Source: Crocinitomicaceae bacterium (GTDB lineage: Bacteria > Bacteroidota > Bacteroidia > Flavobacteriales_D > Crocinitomicaceae). From it: 39,828 bases of DNA. Every line of letters starts with the position of its first letter. The stretch's first letter is position 1. The translations under genes were made by a program, and so were the position numbers. This document shows positions 8,089 to 27,320 of this stretch, piece by piece. The notes below the pieces were generated by a model. That model ran no database searches and was not told the origin of the DNA. It saw nothing but the letters and a program-made list of their open reading frames with translations. The stretch lies in NCBI GenBank assembly GCA_029238665.1, contig JAQWFQ010000001.1, positions 1-39,828 on the forward strand. Direction: 5' to 3'.

Positions 8089-10215
8089 ATGACAAGAAAA
8101 AAGAAACCTAAGAATAAGCTTAAATTAAACTTATCACACATTATCCGAAAGGTCTTTTCGGAAAACCCCGAGTCCACTCTTAACCATAAACAAGTTTGTG
8201 CGTTAATTGATGTTCGTGAATCTGCCATTCGTAAGTTAGTGTTTAATATTTTAGAACGTCTAACTGAAGAAGGTTTTCTTAAAAAAAATGGCCACAGTGT
8301 TTATGTTTTAAAAAACACAAACACTTTTTACGAGGGTGTTTTACAAATAACACAGCGTGGATCTGGTTTTGTTGTTTTAGACGATACTAAAATGGATGAT
8401 GTTTTTATTGATAAAGCTAATCTCCACCAAAGCCTTGGTGGAGATCGGGTAAAAATTCAATTATTAAACACTAGAAAATCTCGTAATGAAGGGTTTATTA
8501 TAAACGTTATTGAGCGTGAGCGAACTCAATTTGTTGGAACAATTCAAATGCATGCTAATTTTGCTTTTTTAATTCCTGATAATAGTCGTATCGGTACACA
8601 TTTATATATTAGAAAAGAAAAACTAAAAGGTGCAAAAAATGGAGACAAAGCTTTAGCTAAAATTACTGTTTGGCCAAAATCTGCTGATAATCCTTACGGT
8701 GAAATAATAGAGGTTTTAGGTAACTCTGGTGGTAATGATACTGAAATGGTAAGTATTCTTGTTAATCAAGGGTTAGATTATAAATTTAACAATGATTTAT
8801 TACAAGAAGCTGAATCGTTATCTCTTAATTTAGATAAAAAAGAATTAAAAAAACGACGCGACTTTAGAAACATTACCACTTTTACAATTGACCCGCATGA
8901 TGCTAAAGATTTTGATGACGCCCTTTCTTTTAAAACATTAGAAAACGGAAATATTGAAATTGGTGTTCATATAGCAGATGTAAGTCATTATGTAAGACCT
9001 GGAACAGTAATGGATAAAGAAGCTTTAAAGCGATCCAACTCTGTTTATTTAGTTGATCGTGTTATTCCTATGTTACCTGAACAACTTTCTAATTTAATTT
9101 GTTCATTGCGACCAAAAGAAGAAAAACTAACCTTTTCTGCTGTTTTTGAAATGGATGAAAACGGAACCGTTTACAATGAATGGTTTGGTAAAACAGTCAT
9201 TTTTTCTGACCGAAGGTTTACTTATGAAGAAGCTCAAGAAATTATTGAGGGTACTGATGGTGACTACAAAACAGAAATTTTATTTTTAGATAAAATAGCT
9301 AAAACTTTACGTAAAAATAGATTGAATAATGGTGCTATGAATATTGAAAGTTCTGAAATGCGCTTCCAATTAAATGAAAAAGGACACCCCATTCAAGCAC
9401 TTTTAAAAACATCTAAAGATGCTAATAAACTAGTTGAAGAGTTTATGCTTTTAGCTAATAAAAAAGTGGCTTCCTTTATTTATAATAAGAAAAAAGACAA
9501 AATACCTTTTATTTACCGCTGTCATGATAAACCTGATATAGCTAAAGTTGAATTATTTAAGCTTTTTGTAAAAAAGTTTGGTTACGATATAAACATTGAC
9601 AATACAAATCATATATCAAAAAATATCAATTCATTACTGAACGATGTTAAGTATAAAAATGAATTTGAATTAATTCAAACAATGGCAATTCGATCAATGT
9701 CTAAAGCAACTTATGAAACATTAAATATTGGTCATTATGGTTTAGCTTTTAACAACTATACCCATTTCACCTCTCCTATCCGTAGATATGCCGATCTAAT
9801 GGTACATCGTATTCTTCAAGAGGAATTAATTCAAACTAAACAGGTTAACGGTAATAGTTTAGATGATATTTGTAAACGAATTTCTAGAATGGAAAGAAAA
9901 GCTGTAAGTGCTGAACGAGAAAGTATTAAATATTTTCAAACATTATTTGTAGCTAATAAAGTTGGTGATGAATTTGAAGGAACTGTTTCTGGAATAGCTG
10001 AATTTGGTGTTTTTGTAAAAATGGACAATAACCTTTGTGAAGGATTAGTTCCAATGAAAGAAATTCCAGGAGATTATTATAGTTTTGATTCTGAACAATT
10101 TACAGTTATTGGTTCAAGAACTGGTAAAGAATATAATTTTGGAGATCGTGTTAAAGTACGTATACAAAATGTTTCAACATCAAAACGTCAAATAGATCTA
10201 GAAATGATTAAATAA
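8089..10215 (+). CDS. rnr: Ribonuclease R
   Basis: The 708-residue protein is a full-length RNase R, a processive 3'-5' exoribonuclease that degrades structured RNA, rRNA fragments and tmRNA-tagged messages. Order of parts: basic N-terminus with a helix-turn-helix-like segment (about 10-70), cold-shock/OB domains (about 80-210), RNB catalytic domain with Asp268, Asp274, Asp276 and Asp277 in IDPHDAKDFDDAL, and a C-terminal S1 domain (about 625-705, beginning VGDEFEGTVSGIAEFGVFV). The start ATG directly follows two inverted repeats. The gene converges on a response-regulator gene and their ends overlap by 8 bases. It is distinctly richer in A+T than genes beyond 13 kb, with many T-ending codons, but a core gene like this need not be foreign. 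Confidence 0.96.
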   Translation: MTRKKKPKNKLKLNLSHIIRKVFSENPESTLNHKQVCALIDVRESAIRKLVFNILERLTEEGFLKKNGHSVYVLKNTNTFYEGVLQITQRGSGFVVLDDTKMDDVFIDKANLHQSLGGDRVKIQLLNTRKSRNEGFIINVIERERTQFVGTIQMHANFAFLIPDNSRIGTHLYIRKEKLKGAKNGDKALAKITVWPKSADNPYGEIIEVLGNSGGNDTEMVSILVNQGLDYKFNNDLLQEAESLSLNLDKKELKKRRDFRNITTFTIDPHDAKDFDDALSFKTLENGNIEIGVHIADVSHYVRPGTVMDKEALKRSNSVYLVDRVIPMLPEQLSNLICSLRPKEEKLTFSAVFEMDENGTVYNEWFGKTVIFSDRRFTYEEAQEIIEGTDGDYKTEILFLDKIAKTLRKNRLNNGAMNIESSEMRFQLNEKGHPIQALLKTSKDANKLVEEFMLLANKKVASFIYNKKKDKIPFIYRCHDKPDIAKVELFKLFVKKFGYDINIDNTNHISKNINSLLNDVKYKNEFELIQTMAIRSMSKATYETLNIGHYGLAFNNYTHFTSPIRRYADLMVHRILQEELIQTKQVNGNSLDDICKRISRMERKAVSAERESIKYFQTLFVANKVGDEFEGTVSGIAEFGVFVKMDNNLCEGLVPMKEIPGDYYSFDSEQFTVIGSRTGKEYNFGDRVKVRIQNVSTSKRQIDLEMIK

Positions 10216-10957
10216 TTTTAATCTGCCTATTTAAGTCATTTTTATAAGAACCTCCTATAGGAATATTTTTATCAACTTTTTCCAACATTAAAAATGGATA
10301 TTCTATTGTTTTTATCTTATTTAAATTAATAATATAAGACCTATGAACTCTTAATAGTTTACTACTACCTATTTTAAATTCAATGTTTTTCATTGTAGAA
10401 TGAACAGTATATTTAATGCCAGAAGTGTAAATAACAACATAATCTTTTAATGCTTCTATATATACTATTTCATCTATATACAACTTAACAAGCTTACTGT
10501 TATGTTTTATAAAAATAAATTCATTTACACTTTTTTTACTATTCACTACTGATACTAATATATTATTTATCTCCTCTTTTTCTTTACTGTGTTTATAAAT
10601 AGCTAACTCTATCGTTGAATATAAATCAATATCTTTAACTGGTTTTAATAGATATCCATAAGGTTTTGTTTTTTTAGCTTTAGATAAAGTAACTTCATTT
10701 GTGTATGATGTATAAAAAATAACCGGTATAGAATAGTTTAACCGAATAAAATCAGCTGTTTTTATCCCGTCCATACTCCCTTTTAATTTTACATCCATTA
10801 AAACAATATCAGGAATATCTAAACTCACTTTTTCAATAGCTACCTCACCTGTATTACAAGTTCCTATAACATTATAACCTAGTTTTGTAAGACTATTAAA
10901 TAAATTACTAGAAGTAATTGGTTGGTTCTCTACCACAAGTACACTTATTGCAGCCAT
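10208..10957 (-). CDS. LytTR-family response regulator, orphan
   Basis: The 249-residue protein has a receiver domain (about 1-122) with phospho-acceptor Asp55 (IVLMDVKL), Thr83 and Lys105 (LLKPV), then a LytTR DNA-binding domain (about 145-249; FIFIKHNSKLVKL, then VYIEALKDYVVIYT, HRSYIINLNKI). LytTR proteins bind direct repeats upstream of targets. The acidic pocket near residue 10 reads V-E-N-Q rather than V-E-D-E, so one of the two Mg-binding acids is replaced by Asn11, which could change phosphorylation kinetics. No histidine kinase is adjacent. The very AT-rich stretch upstream may hold its operator. A TAAATTTG element is 22 bases before the ATG. The gene itself is strongly AT-rich. Confidence 0.93.
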   Translation of the reverse strand: MAAISVLVVENQPITSSNLFNSLTKLGYNVIGTCNTGEVAIEKVSLDIPDIVLMDVKLKGSMDGIKTADFIRLNYSIPVIFYTSYTNEVTLSKAKKTKPYGYLLKPVKDIDLYSTIELAIYKHSKEKEEINNILVSVVNSKKSVNEFIFIKHNSKLVKLYIDEIVYIEALKDYVVIYTSGIKYTVHSTMKNIEFKIGSSKLLRVHRSYIINLNKIKTIEYPFLMLEKVDKNIPIGGSYKNDLNRQIKII

Positions 10958-10979
10958 TTTAAATTCGTTTAATAAACTT

Positions 10980-10987
10980 CAAATTTA
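10980..10987 (-). promoter_or_regulatory. Bacteroidota -7 promoter element, LytTR regulator
   Basis: Minus-strand TAAATTTG matches TAnnTTTG, 22 bases before the ATG. A minus-strand TTG at 11013-11011 is 23 bases upstream. Confidence 0.45.
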
Positions 10988-11472
10988 ATCATATATTTTA
11001 TTCTGTTTTTCAAGAATAAAATAGGTAACTCTATTTCTAAATTAATTACAGTTTACCTTTTAAATATTAGATTTAATCTAAACACTTAAAGTAATGTAAA
11101 TCAACTAGTTAATATGAAACAAACCAATTATAAATAGAAGATAGGGTATTTTTTATAAAAAACCAAATAGAGGTATTTTTAACTACTTAATAGAGTAATT
11201 AAATAACTTTTTAATTAAAAAGAGAAACTATTATATTTATTAAGAATGTTAATATGTTTATAAGTATAAAAAAAAGTAAATACTATGTTGTATAACAATC
11301 ATATTAATAGTGTTTTATGTTATATATTTTAAATAAAAACATATGGTTAATTACTTAAGTTTATTCTGTTATAAAAAACTCATAAATAATTAAAACTATA
11401 CTAGGTTTATATAAATAAATAATAGTATTCGAATAAAAAACTATATTTCCTAATAAAAGTAATTAATAGTTA

Positions 11473-11486
11473 TTAATACGTATTAA
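11473..11486. promoter_or_regulatory. Perfect 14-base palindrome, possible operator
   Basis: TTAATACGTATTAA is its own reverse complement and contains one of the few CG steps in an otherwise A/T-only stretch. It lies 140 bases upstream of rpiB. Binding of a dimeric regulator is inference. Confidence 0.3.
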
Positions 11487-11600
11487 CATAAAAAAAAGAT
11501 TTATAGTTAATAAAAAAAAGCAAAAAGGGTTTAAAATAAGGTGTTTAAAGGTTTACATTTTTTTAAATGTTTAAAAGTAGGAGTAATTGTTAATATCATA

Positions 11601-11608
11601 TAAATTTG
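11601..11608 (+). promoter_or_regulatory. Bacteroidota -7 promoter element, rpiB
   Basis: TAAATTTG matches TAnnTTTG and lies 17 bases before the chosen rpiB ATG at 11626; it is downstream of the alternative upstream start at 11587, which argues against that start. Confidence 0.4.
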
Positions 11609-11625
11609 TAAAAAAAGCGAAAATT

Positions 11626-12060
11626 ATGAAAAATATAATACCAATTGGATCTGATCATGCCGGTTTTGAACTCAAAAATAAAATTATAAAACACCTAGAG
11701 AAAAAAGGGTATGAATTAAAGGATTTTGGTTGTTATTCTGAAGAGAGTATTGATTACCCCGACTTTGGTCATCCAGTTGCTTCTTTGGTAGAAGAAAACG
11801 AAGAAATGTTAGGAATAATTATTTGCGGTTCAGGTAATGGTATTAATATGACGGCAAATAAACATCAAAAAGTAAGAAGTGCATTGTGTTGGAATACTGA
11901 AATAGTACAATTAGCAAGAGAACATAATAATGCAAATATTTTGGCTTTACCAGCTCGTTTTATAACAGAAAAAGAAGCTATAGAAATGGTAGAGGTGTTT
12001 TTTTCTGTACAGTTTGAAGGAGGAAGACATCAAAAAAGAGTAAATAAAATATCCTGTTAA
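11626..12060 (+). CDS. rpiB: Ribose-5-phosphate isomerase B
   Basis: The 144-residue protein is a normal-length RpiB/LacAB-type isomerase that interconverts ribose 5-phosphate and ribulose 5-phosphate in the non-oxidative pentose phosphate pathway. Visible signatures are G8-S-D-H11-A-G, catalytic Cys67 in CGSGNG, His100 in REHNNAN, and the phosphate-binding basic tail GGRHQKRV. I use the ATG at 11626 because it gives the family N-terminus (MKNIIPIGSDHAG); the frame extends back to 11587 without added similarity and across a likely promoter. A weak hairpin with a T-run follows at 12093-12112, before the sigma-factor gene. Confidence 0.95.
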   Translation: MKNIIPIGSDHAGFELKNKIIKHLEKKGYELKDFGCYSEESIDYPDFGHPVASLVEENEEMLGIIICGSGNGINMTANKHQKVRSALCWNTEIVQLAREHNNANILALPARFITEKEAIEMVEVFFSVQFEGGRHQKRVNKISC

Positions 12061-19037: not shown

Positions 19038-19042
19038 TTGTG

Positions 19043-19113
19043 AGGTCCCGAGCGGATTCGAACCGCTGTAGATGGTTTTGCAGACCACTGCCTAGCCACT
19101 CGGCCACAGGACC
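19043..19113 (-). tRNA. trnC: tRNA-Cys (GCA)
   Basis: The minus-strand 71-base gene folds as a cloverleaf. The acceptor stem GGTCCTG / CGGGACC has one G-T pair. The anticodon GCA lies in GGTCTGCAAAACC, the T-arm contains GGTTCGAATCC, and the discriminator base is U, the identity base for Cys. CCA is not encoded. A TACATTTG promoter element lies 12 bases upstream, and the shared terminator begins 5 bases downstream. Confidence 0.97.
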
Positions 19114-24572: not shown

Positions 24573-24989
24573 ATGAAAGATGGTTACGTTGAAATTGAAA
24601 GCTTAAAGGTTCCTTCTAGCTTTGAATCTATAAATAAGGTTGAGGTGTTGATAGATGCCGTTTGCAGTAGGCTTTCTGTAAACGAAGACTATTATGGAAA
24701 CGTTTTGATTGCGGTTACTGAGGCTGTTAATAATGCTATTCAGCACGGAAACAAAGGCTCGGCAGACTTGTCGGTTGATTTATTTGTTTCCGATAAAGAA
24801 ACAGATTTTTGTTTTCAAGTCAAAGACTATGGTGATGGGTTTGACTATAAAAAACTTCCAGACCCAACAGCTCCAGAAAATATAGAACAAGAAAATGGAC
24901 GCGGAATTTATTTAATGAGATCGCTTGCTGAGGGCGTTGAGTTTGGGAACGGAGGACGAAGTGTTAGTATATATTTTAGTAAGAAATAG
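24573..24989 (+). CDS. RsbW-like ATP-binding protein (HATPase_c_2)
   Basis: The 138-residue protein is a single GHKL ATPase domain of the serine-kinase anti-sigma type: N-box EAVNNAIQHGNKG (about 50-62), G1-box DYGDGFD, and G2-box NGRGIYLMRSL. In Firmicutes such proteins phosphorylate anti-anti-sigma STAS partners or bind sigma-B-type factors; no STAS gene is next to it here, so the partner is unknown. I prefer the ATG at 24573 to the GTG at 24567 two codons upstream. It starts 15 bases after the DUF4175 gene, and its TAG overlaps the ybeY GTG by one base. Confidence 0.88.
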   Translation: MKDGYVEIESLKVPSSFESINKVEVLIDAVCSRLSVNEDYYGNVLIAVTEAVNNAIQHGNKGSADLSVDLFVSDKETDFCFQVKDYGDGFDYKKLPDPTAPENIEQENGRGIYLMRSLAEGVEFGNGGRSVSIYFSKK

Positions 24990-25411
24990 TGGTTAATATT
25001 TTTTTTGAGGACACTGATGCTTTGGATTTAAGTCCAAAGCTTTTTGTTTCCTGGTTGTCTGATTTAGTTTCACGTGAAACATTGGAGTTGGGGGAGGTGA
25101 GTTTGATTTTTACAAGCGATGAATACCTTTTGTCTGTAAATCAAGAGCATTTAAACCATGATTTTTATACGGATATTATTACCTTTGACTATCGTTCGGG
25201 AGTTGTTGTTTCTGCAGATTTATTTATTTCTATTGACATGGTTCGGTATAATGCTGACAAGTTGTCTTTGGTGTTTTTAAACGAGTTGTACCGAGTTGTT
25301 GCTCACGGAGTGCTGCATGTTTGTGGTTATGGTGACAAGACGCCGGACGAAAAGATTTTAATGACCCAAAAGGAGAATGAGGCCTTGGTTTTAATAAGGT
25401 CTTATTTATAG
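24989..25411 (+). CDS. ybeY: Endoribonuclease / 16S rRNA maturation factor YbeY
   Basis: The 140-residue protein matches YbeY, a metal-dependent RNase needed for 16S rRNA 3'-end maturation and 70S quality control. Conserved parts are TDIITFDY, the ADLFIS strand and the metal site AHGVLHVCGYGD. The third ligand of the usual H-x3-H-x5-H motif is Asp here, a change I recall from other Bacteroidota YbeY proteins. It starts with GTG directly overlapping the previous stop (TAGTG). Codons 27-31 (Val-Ser-Arg-Glu-Thr) are written GTTTCACGTGAAACA, which is also the core of a ParB-binding parS site. Confidence 0.94.
   Translation: MVNIFFEDTDALDLSPKLFVSWLSDLVSRETLELGEVSLIFTSDEYLLSVNQEHLNHDFYTDIITFDYRSGVVVSADLFISIDMVRYNADKLSLVFLNELYRVVAHGVLHVCGYGDKTPDEKILMTQKENEALVLIRSYL
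25066..25081. other. parS-like site inside ybeY
   Basis: AGTTTCACGTGAAACA matches the ParB/Spo0J centromere consensus TGTTnCACGTGAAACA at 15 of 16 bases, with a perfect 14-base palindromic core at 25067-25080. It lies within the ybeY coding sequence. Confidence 0.85.
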
Positions 25412-25425
25412 TGGGTTTGTGGTTT

Positions 25426-25441
25426 TGTTCCACGTGAAACA
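25426..25441. other. parS-like site between ybeY and mnmG
   Basis: TGTTCCACGTGAAACA matches the consensus TGTTnCACGTGAAACA at every defined base. It occupies nearly the whole gap between the ybeY stop (25411) and the mnmG ATG (25449), 360 bases from the first site. Confidence 0.9.
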
Positions 25442-25448
25442 ATAATTT

Positions 25449-27320
25449 ATGTTAAAACAATATGATGTAATAGTAGTTGGTGGTGGTCACGCTGGTTGTG
25501 AGGCTGCAAACGCTGCGGGAAAGTTGGGTAGCTCCGTTTTACTCGTTACTATGAACATGAATACAATTGCCCAGATGAGCTGTAACCCAGCAATGGGAGG
25601 TGTGGCAAAAGGGCAGGTTGTTCGGGAGATTGATGCGCTTGGCGGTGGGTCCGGGATTGTGAGCGACTTGAGTGCTATACAGTTTCGAATGTTAAATAGG
25701 TCTAAGGGCCCTGCTATGTGGTCTCCGAGAACACAAAACGACCGAATGCTGTTTGCTGAAGAGTGGCGGCTAATGCTGGAACGGAACCCCAATGTGGATT
25801 TTTGGCAAGACATGTGTACGGGACTGATTACCGAAGGGGAATCTGTAGTGGGAATAAAAACCGCGATAGGAATTGAGATAAAATCAAAGTCGGTTGTATT
25901 GACAAACGGTACTTTTTTGAATGGTTTAATTCATTTGGGTGAAAAGCAGTTTGGAGGTGGCCGTGCAGGTGAGAGAGAGGCAACAGGGATTACCGAAGAG
26001 CTTTCTAGCTTAGGGTTTGAAACGGGTCGGATGAAAACAGGAACACCCCCACGGGTTGATGGACGCTCATTGGATTACTCAAAAATGGAAGAGCAGTTTG
26101 GAGACGAGTCGCCTTCAAAGTTTAGTTATTCTGACACTAAACCGCTGTCAAAACAGAGGTCTTGTTATATTACATATACAAACCCGGACACACACGAAAT
26201 GTTAAAGGAAGGGTTTGATCGCTCTCCAATGTTTAATGGCGCAATTAAAAGTGCTGGTCCTAGGTATTGTCCAAGTATAGAAGATAAAATAAACCGCTTT
26301 TCGGACCGTGATAGACATCAAATATTTGTTGAGCCAGAAGGCTGGAGTACTGTTGAAATATATGTAAATGGGTTTAGTACTTCGTTGCCAGAAGATGTTC
26401 AGGTAAAAGCGATGCAGTTGATTCCTGGGTTTGAAAAAGCAAAAATGTTTCGCCCTGGATATGCGATTGAATACGATTATTTTCCCCCAACACAATTAAA
26501 ACATACACTTGAAACAAAAGCACTTAGTGGCTTGTATTTTGCAGGCCAAATAAATGGAACTACAGGGTACGAAGAGGCGGCTTGCCAAGGCTTAATGGCA
26601 GGAATAAATGCACACCGTAAAATAAAACAACAAGAGCCTTTTATTCTTTCAAGAAGCGAAGCTTATATAGGTGTGTTGATTGATGATCTTATTACAAAGG
26701 GTACTGATGAGCCTTACCGAATGTTTACAAGTCGTGCAGAGTACAGAATTTTGTTACGTCAAGATAATGCAGATATTCGATTAACTCAAATTGGCCACGC
26801 TATTGGTTTGGCTGATGATTTGGCGTTGAGTCGTGTTGAAGCAAAAATTAAAGGAACACAAGATTTAAAAAAAGCACTTCAAAAAGAAGGTGTTACTGTC
26901 GAAAAAGCAAATGTTGTTTTGAAAGAAAAAAACAGTTCTCCTATAAAGCAACAGGTGCGATTAAATTCTTTGATTACAAGGCCAAACATTACAATGGAAG
27001 ATGTACTTGGAATGAGTATTGATTCAAAAAAACTCGCTGAAGAATTGACTCAAATTCATCCAGACATTGTTTCTCAAGCCGAGATACAATTAAAATATGA
27101 GGGCTATATTAACCGAGAAGAAGATGTGGCTAAAAAAATGAATCGTTTAGATGAAGTTAAAATACCGGCTGAATTGGATTATTCAAAACTGAAAAGTTTA
27201 AGCAGTGAGTCGAAGGAAAAACTTGCAAAATTAAAACCGGTAACTATAGGTCAAGCTTCACGGGTTAGTGGAGTTTCTCCAAGTGACATTTCTGTTCTTT
27301 TGGTTTATCTAGGACGGTAA
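25449..27320 (+). CDS. mnmG: tRNA U34 5-carboxymethylaminomethyl modification enzyme MnmG
   Basis: The 623-residue protein is full-length MnmG/GidA. With MnmE it forms the cmnm5 group at wobble U34 of several tRNAs, using FAD, NADH, glycine or ammonium and methylene-tetrahydrofolate. The FAD-binding motif is [12 protein letters not shown] (about 10-21); further signatures are [34 protein letters not shown] and [12 protein letters not shown]. The C-terminal helical domain (about 550-623) ends [17 protein letters not shown]. The partner gene mnmE lies at the other end of the window. A parS-like site is eight bases upstream of its ATG, so ParB loading and transcription of this operon may interact. 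Confidence 0.97.

Follow-up and report, generated by a model that had tools for sequence, protein, structure and literature searches.

The window, meaning the whole 39,828-nucleotide stretch of DNA analysed, makes up contig 9 in full, in a Crocinitomicaceae draft genome of 2.2 Mb and 34 contigs. Its features of interest (Table 1) include: (i) ybeY and mnmG, in tandem on the same strand, (ii) a pair of palindromes, both of which match the palindromic 14-16-base parS consensus, and (iii) an AT-rich stretch beside rpiB. The MnmG of the window is nearest, among named proteins, to that of Fluviicola sp. XM-24bin1 (82% identity). A reading made earlier from the letters of the DNA (here, the sequence-only reading) had described two parS-like sites 360 bases apart, one a full match and the other matching 15 of 16 bases, with the first written into the ybeY frame as Val-Ser-Arg-Glu-Thr; the pair is present as described, with 15/16 consensus bases matched at site 1 and 16/16 at site 2. 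The 14-base core of site 1 begins 78 bases after the ybeY start, and codons 27-31 read GTT TCA CGT GAA ACA (Val-Ser-Arg-Glu-Thr). Site 2 falls inside the 37-base gap that separates the ybeY stop codon from the mnmG ATG at 25449.

A terminator-like stem of 9 pairs, followed by a T run, lies 26 bases upstream of site 1, at 25019-25040 within the 5' part of the gene ybeY. Terminator-like sites number 2 in the interval 24900-25600 compared to 0.6 in shuffles, and a promoter scan around the parS sites returns 2 compared to 1.4 in shuffles. Rfam and tRNA scans of the whole window yield a sole match, tRNA-Cys at 19042-19113.

Table 1. Features of the ybeY-mnmG locus and of the rpiB-side stretch, by position in the window.
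Feature	Position	Strand	Remarks
LytTR-type response regulator	10208-10957		Other flank of candidate oriC; PF04397, PF00072
Candidate oriC, non-coding	10958..11586	.	GC 0.165 over 629 bases; directly 5' of rpiB; ~14 kb from parS pair
Two overlapping DnaA-box-like repeats, TGTTNATA	11247..11263	-	Reverse of TATNAACA
DnaA-box-like repeat, TATNAACA	11480..11488	+
rpiB (ribose/galactose isomerase family)	11587..12060	+	Flanks candidate oriC; PF02502, E 2e-58
ybeY (endoribonuclease YbeY)	24989..25411	+	Host of parS site 1; PF02130, E 4e-20
parS site 1, AGTTTCACGTGAAACA	25066..25081	.	In ybeY, codons 27-31; 1 mismatch to TGTTNCACGTGAAACA
parS site 2 (anchor), TGTTCCACGTGAAACA	25426..25441	.	~22 bases 5' of mnmG start codon; 0 mismatches
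mnmG (gidA)	25449..27320	+	Gene beside which parS sites of the class cluster; PF01134, E 3e-161

Rarity of the sites and the ParB of the host genome

The pattern GTTYCACGTGRAAC is both rare and clustered, with two exact occurrences in the 2.2 Mb draft genome, both in this pair, and the backward reading of GTTNCACGTGAAAC, used as a control, has no occurrence in the same draft. When up to two mismatches are allowed, the genome yields 21 matches compared to 29 for the backward control; thus, the weak matches elsewhere are background. Within the window, relaxation to three mismatches adds position 1276 as the only place beyond the pair, and the resulting count of 5 matches is ordinary, being reached by 8 of 100 shuffles, such that the weight of evidence rests on the near-exact matches. 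This ordinary count is the point in favour of chance matching, which the sequence-only reading had already called very unlikely; against it, a first-order model of the window composition predicts 0.03 occurrences of GTTYCACGTGRAAC per 2.2 Mb genome, yet two are found together, and the conservation of site position in relatives refutes it. The likelihood of chance is, thus, negligible. Single-mismatch parS-like sites elsewhere in the genome are only three, one each on contigs 4, 22 and 25 (L004, L005 and L006), and all three carry the identical change of CACGTG to CACTTG.

A single ParB-family match is encoded in the genome (contig 26, E 3e-57) and includes N-terminal, HTH and dimerisation domains (PF17762, PF02195 and PF23552). 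The open reading frame directly before it encodes a ParA/MinD-type ATPase (AAA_31, CbiA). Two of the three findings that the sequence-only reading had set against itself, a genome lacking parB and matches scattered far from the pair, are not what the genome presents: parB is there with an adjoining ParA-type ATPase, and the genome-wide scan returns no exact match outside the pair. The host ParB aligns with Spo0J, Noc and Caulobacter ParB proteins of known structure, and its HMMER alignment to Noc gives R-H-K-G at the four ParB/Noc specificity positions. Passages of one study (PMC7383237) present R173 and G201 as conserved in ParB and as the parS-type residues. The host protein has R and G at both of these discriminating positions, and a ParB with parS-type DNA contacts is therefore encoded in the same genome as the sites, which are likely to be ordinary parS. 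A Noc-type site is rejected on the same two residues and on the presence of one ParB-family match in the genome. Both dnaA and parB of the draft genome reside on contigs other than that of the window.

Sites in ybeY and beside mnmG among relatives

Within the genus, 34 genomes were searched, of which 31 have a YbeY match and one of these is without the locus, giving a set of 30 loci that includes the window's own. The anchor site is found -21 to -24 from mnmG in 30/30 loci (29 exact and 1 with one mismatch). A second site, in ybeY or across the ybeY stop codon, likewise accompanies it in 30/30 (29 exact and 1 with a single mismatch); its place is codon 27 in three loci (the window, L120 and L122), codon 94 in three, across the stop codon in three (one being the mismatched site) and the C-terminal codons in 21. 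Six of these 21 have an extra site near codon 95 in another frame, where it encodes Phe-His-Val-Glu-Leu. The ybeY site of the genus is, thus, subject to positional turnover more than to synonymous drift. The asymmetric anchor core GTTCCACGTGAAAC is present in 24 of the 29 exact anchors of the genus loci (L118-L147) and its reverse complement in 0; the named loci and the class loci show this orientation bias less strongly.

The near-constant spacing to the mnmG start in the genus, often similar in other families, is also what would be expected of a transcription-factor operator that controls mnmG and has no centromere function. The same sequence, however, is found in ybeY, across the ybeY stop codon and just after mnmG, and is nearly absent outside the locus in both the genome of the window and 19 single-contig genomes, one of which has eight copies. 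As the sequence is moreover that of canonical parS and ParB is present, an operator is quite improbable. An RNA hairpin in the ybeY-mnmG transcript would account for a palindrome in the 37-base gap, which is probably transcribed and just 5' of a start codon. By contrast, mRNA bases 4 and 11, which a hairpin would pair with each other, are C and A, and thus unpaired, in 24 of the 29 exact genus anchors, the U-G form occurs 0 times and no Rfam family matches here; a hairpin is, thus, very improbable. The reading of the palindromes as parS sites is retained below.

The effect of the ybeY site on its host protein is apparent from the peptide V[SP]R[EG]T, which was searched in YbeY in a codon-blind manner that covers frame-0 sites only. 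The peptide is encoded by an exact parS in 27/28 cases among the 30 genus loci, in 14/14 cases among the named loci (66 of 80 having YbeY) and in 4/5 cases among the class loci (43 of 80 having YbeY), with some lineages common to the three sets. The two exceptions (L141 and L303) are each one synonymous base off parS, indicating that some synonymous drift occurs; L141 has an exact site elsewhere in its ybeY. Across sampled stretches totalling 2.0 Mb the peptide is found at two places, in L177 (exact parS) and in L349 of genome G198 (one mismatch). The L177 occurrence is very probably the parS site known in G370, as it is in the G370 stretch that contains mnmG.

An AlphaFold prediction for YbeY of the window (mean pLDDT 97) places residues 27-31 at the end of a helix and in the loop that follows, and residues 94-98 in a loop and the beginning of a helix. 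The C-terminal parS place is where the last helix is predicted to end, or beyond it. The 16 invariant columns of YbeY all fall outside residues 27-31 and 94-98. The invariant columns of the group include H106, H110 and D116 (within 24989-25411 of the window, residues 106-116); D116 presumably stands where E. coli YbeY uses a third histidine as metal ligand. The proposal that a segregation signal constrains the protein sequence is, thus, supported by the coding of the peptide, with the qualification that codon 27 is not a fixed place: only 2 of the 29 relatives share it, and in the remaining 27 the site is at another place in ybeY or across the stop codon (26 exact sites and one with a single mismatch). 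At the DNA level, the one genus case in which the peptide is not encoded by an exact parS differs by one synonymous change.

At the level of the family, the parS pattern is detected in 143/150 genomes. Among the named loci (n = 80), an exact site is upstream of mnmG in 62 and downstream in 14, and 16 lack both. The class set includes 80 genomes that were handpicked, with parS unseen at choice, across 62 families outside that of the window, the class pool being the 389/396 genomes with an MnmG match. An exact site is located within a ~2.9 kb stretch around mnmG in 60/80 of these loci, spanning 50 families, and is absent from that stretch in 20/80. Of 300 shuffled palindromes used as controls on the 80 class loci, 296 match none and 4 match 24-27 loci; exactly four of the shuffles drawn are compatible with the true parS half-site.

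Single-contig genomes (n = 19) allow the sites to be placed on one contig each. Exact sites occur in 15 of these genomes and total 36, of which 35 are within 0.6 kb of mnmG; the sole exact site of G451 is 25 kb away. The remaining four have one-mismatch sites beside mnmG instead, and ParB is encoded in 19/19, these four included. The backward pattern gives 1 match across the 19 genomes, in G391. The nearest ParB-family gene is at least ~0.28 Mb from the sites in all 15 relatives with exact sites, and an arrangement of parS adjoining parB is rejected. With contigs taken as circular, a distance of at least ~0.66 Mb separates dnaA (over the cut-off) from parS in 14 of the 15 genomes; in G198 the distance is 16 kb. 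Neighbouring parS sites that are less than 160 bases apart are most often separated by 34-39 or 43-48 bases (84 pairs; loci L008-L087 and L228-L307, which are related to one another), a spacing that may reflect helical phasing.

Position relative to the replication origin

The sequence-only reading placed the window near the replication origin, and the skew of the window agrees with this on the local scale only. Skew was sampled in twenty (or ten) 20-kb stretches in each of six single-contig genomes, with mixed results. In G391, which is of the same order as the window's organism, the plain and fourfold cumulative minima share the 3.50-3.69 Mb interval that holds mnmG (3.64), and in G277 both are in the 0.80-0.91 interval that holds mnmG (0.876). 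In G370 both are in the 1.86-2.05 interval, which starts ~13 kb from mnmG (1.852). For G305 the plain skew agrees with mnmG (2.43-2.74, mnmG at 2.63) and the fourfold skew does not (1.44-1.75, rpiB at 1.24), and for G528 the plain minimum is in 3.16-0.10 (spanning the contig ends) and the fourfold minimum in 2.36-2.80, both of which leave mnmG (3.09) outside. The gene-strand measure points away from mnmG in G391, G370 and G277. In none of the six sampled genomes does the interval of a plain or fourfold minimum include dnaA, which is, thus, rejected as an origin marker.

In G198 (family f37), the mnmG-parS locus (0.02 Mb) is separated from dnaA by 16 kb and from rpiB (2.06 Mb) by 2 Mb, and both sampled minima are at 1.77-1.95 Mb, near rpiB and far from mnmG. 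A large rearrangement, or movement of parS off the origin, is possible in this genome.

A candidate oriC is noted in the window at 10958-11586, where an AT-rich non-coding stretch adjoins the start of rpiB. In five single-contig relatives a stretch that is AT-richer than its surroundings (GC 0.18-0.33) is found at the same place, and equally AT-rich stretches occur elsewhere in some of these relatives (e.g., G506). In 13 of the 19 single-contig genomes rpiB and mnmG are less than 70 kb apart, the exceptions being G198, G235, G258, G305, G389 and G528. Across 30 loci (the window, G370 and 28 further family members), the 650-base segments 5' of rpiB include a total of 104 motifs of TATNAACA, which is taken to be a DnaA box from its form; shuffles give 11.2 on average and at most 17 in 30 rounds. 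Many of these motifs are at aligned positions, with L323 off the alignment by eye. The window's copy is a weak case for oriC because it has three such motifs, a count reached by 9/500 shuffles, and no TTATCCACA within one mismatch in 10958-11586. With 40-80 kb examined, about 5 kb at most separates the fourfold minimum from the candidate oriC in the window and in G391, G370, G506 and G440; in G277 the separation is 33 kb. Replication may initiate at the rpiB-side stretch. A relative of the LytTR-type response regulator that flanks this stretch is also near mnmG in G391.

The sites may alternatively be parS in a region that is not origin-proximal in this genome, with parS staying beside mnmG and the origin elsewhere. 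The draft state of the assembly, with dnaA and parB on other contigs and skew of local scale only, is in keeping with this possibility, as are the distant skew minimum of G198 and the conflicting measures of G305 and G528. By contrast, the plain and fourfold minima of G391, G370 and G277 are in intervals that hold or adjoin mnmG, and the fourfold minimum and candidate oriC of the window are 13-14 kb from mnmG; an origin elsewhere is, thus, unlikely. The origin-proximal placement of the sequence-only reading is the weakest element of that reading and stands as probable for the parS segment, on three of six relatives and the local skew, with conflicting measures in G305 and G528 and with G198 as the counterexample. 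Origin-proximal in this group does not mean near dnaA or parB.

Proposed function and comparison with known segregation systems

Taken together, the best explanation of the two sites is that they are chromosomal parS centromere sites, presumably bound by ParB, in a probably origin-proximal segment (with a probability of roughly 0.87). By analogy to ParB proteins studied elsewhere, the single ParB would bind each palindrome, close as a CTP-bound clamp and slide into ybeY and mnmG. The complex would then be moved by ParA and may load SMC, such that the segment would be segregated first. Sequence comparison shows that the distance of the mnmG-proximal site is almost constant among genus members and that its partner turns over within ybeY, dictating the amino acids where it resides. 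The parS sites are proposed to be gained and lost inside a short zone, presumably because a site anywhere in that zone works, and sites outside the zone would not be kept. Whether this extends to much of the Bacteroidia is an evenly balanced proposition: the centromere would be a place more than a set of fixed sites, marked by a single parS or a small number of copies no more than about 0.6 kb from mnmG, in most cases close to an origin and independent of dnaA and parB, with sites repeatedly born and lost and the loops and tail of YbeY rewritten in the process.

The mnmG-parS locus would serve to mark the centromere in sequence data, and probably the origin region, in a class in which dnaA does not. 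In ybeY, the gain and loss of parS within a coding gene would be recorded naturally, and the candidate oriC family upstream of rpiB would be a further useful outcome.

The clustering of parS near origins is already known (PMC7333895). For a gut consortium of 12 species, Bacteroides caecimuris and Muribaculum intestinale among them, passages of PMC10197239 describe the placement of the origin by parS clusters and GC skew and note that the origin is not always at dnaA. The main text of that paper makes no mention of mnmG, gidA, ybeY or rpiB. A link of parS with mnmG or ybeY in Bacteroidota appears in no title or abstract among the matches listed, which cover part of the journals, and an earlier mention may exist. 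The consortium resembles the present relatives in its parS clusters and in an origin that is not always at dnaA, the species with a displaced dnaA being unnamed in the passages.

The present sites share with the chromosomal parS of ParABS systems a 16-base palindrome, few and clustered copies, and the encoding of ParA and ParB in the genome. The best-known model genomes have parA-parB near parS and the origin. By contrast, the nearest ParB-family gene is at least ~0.28 Mb off in the 15 single-contig relatives with exact sites, which are close against mnmG. In Proteobacteria and Firmicutes, gidA/mnmG is near oriC and close to rsmG-parA-parB. The probable location of mnmG near a replication origin is the likeness to that neighbourhood. 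In the single-contig relatives, by contrast, parB is elsewhere, as is dnaA in all save G198, and it is parS that stays with mnmG.
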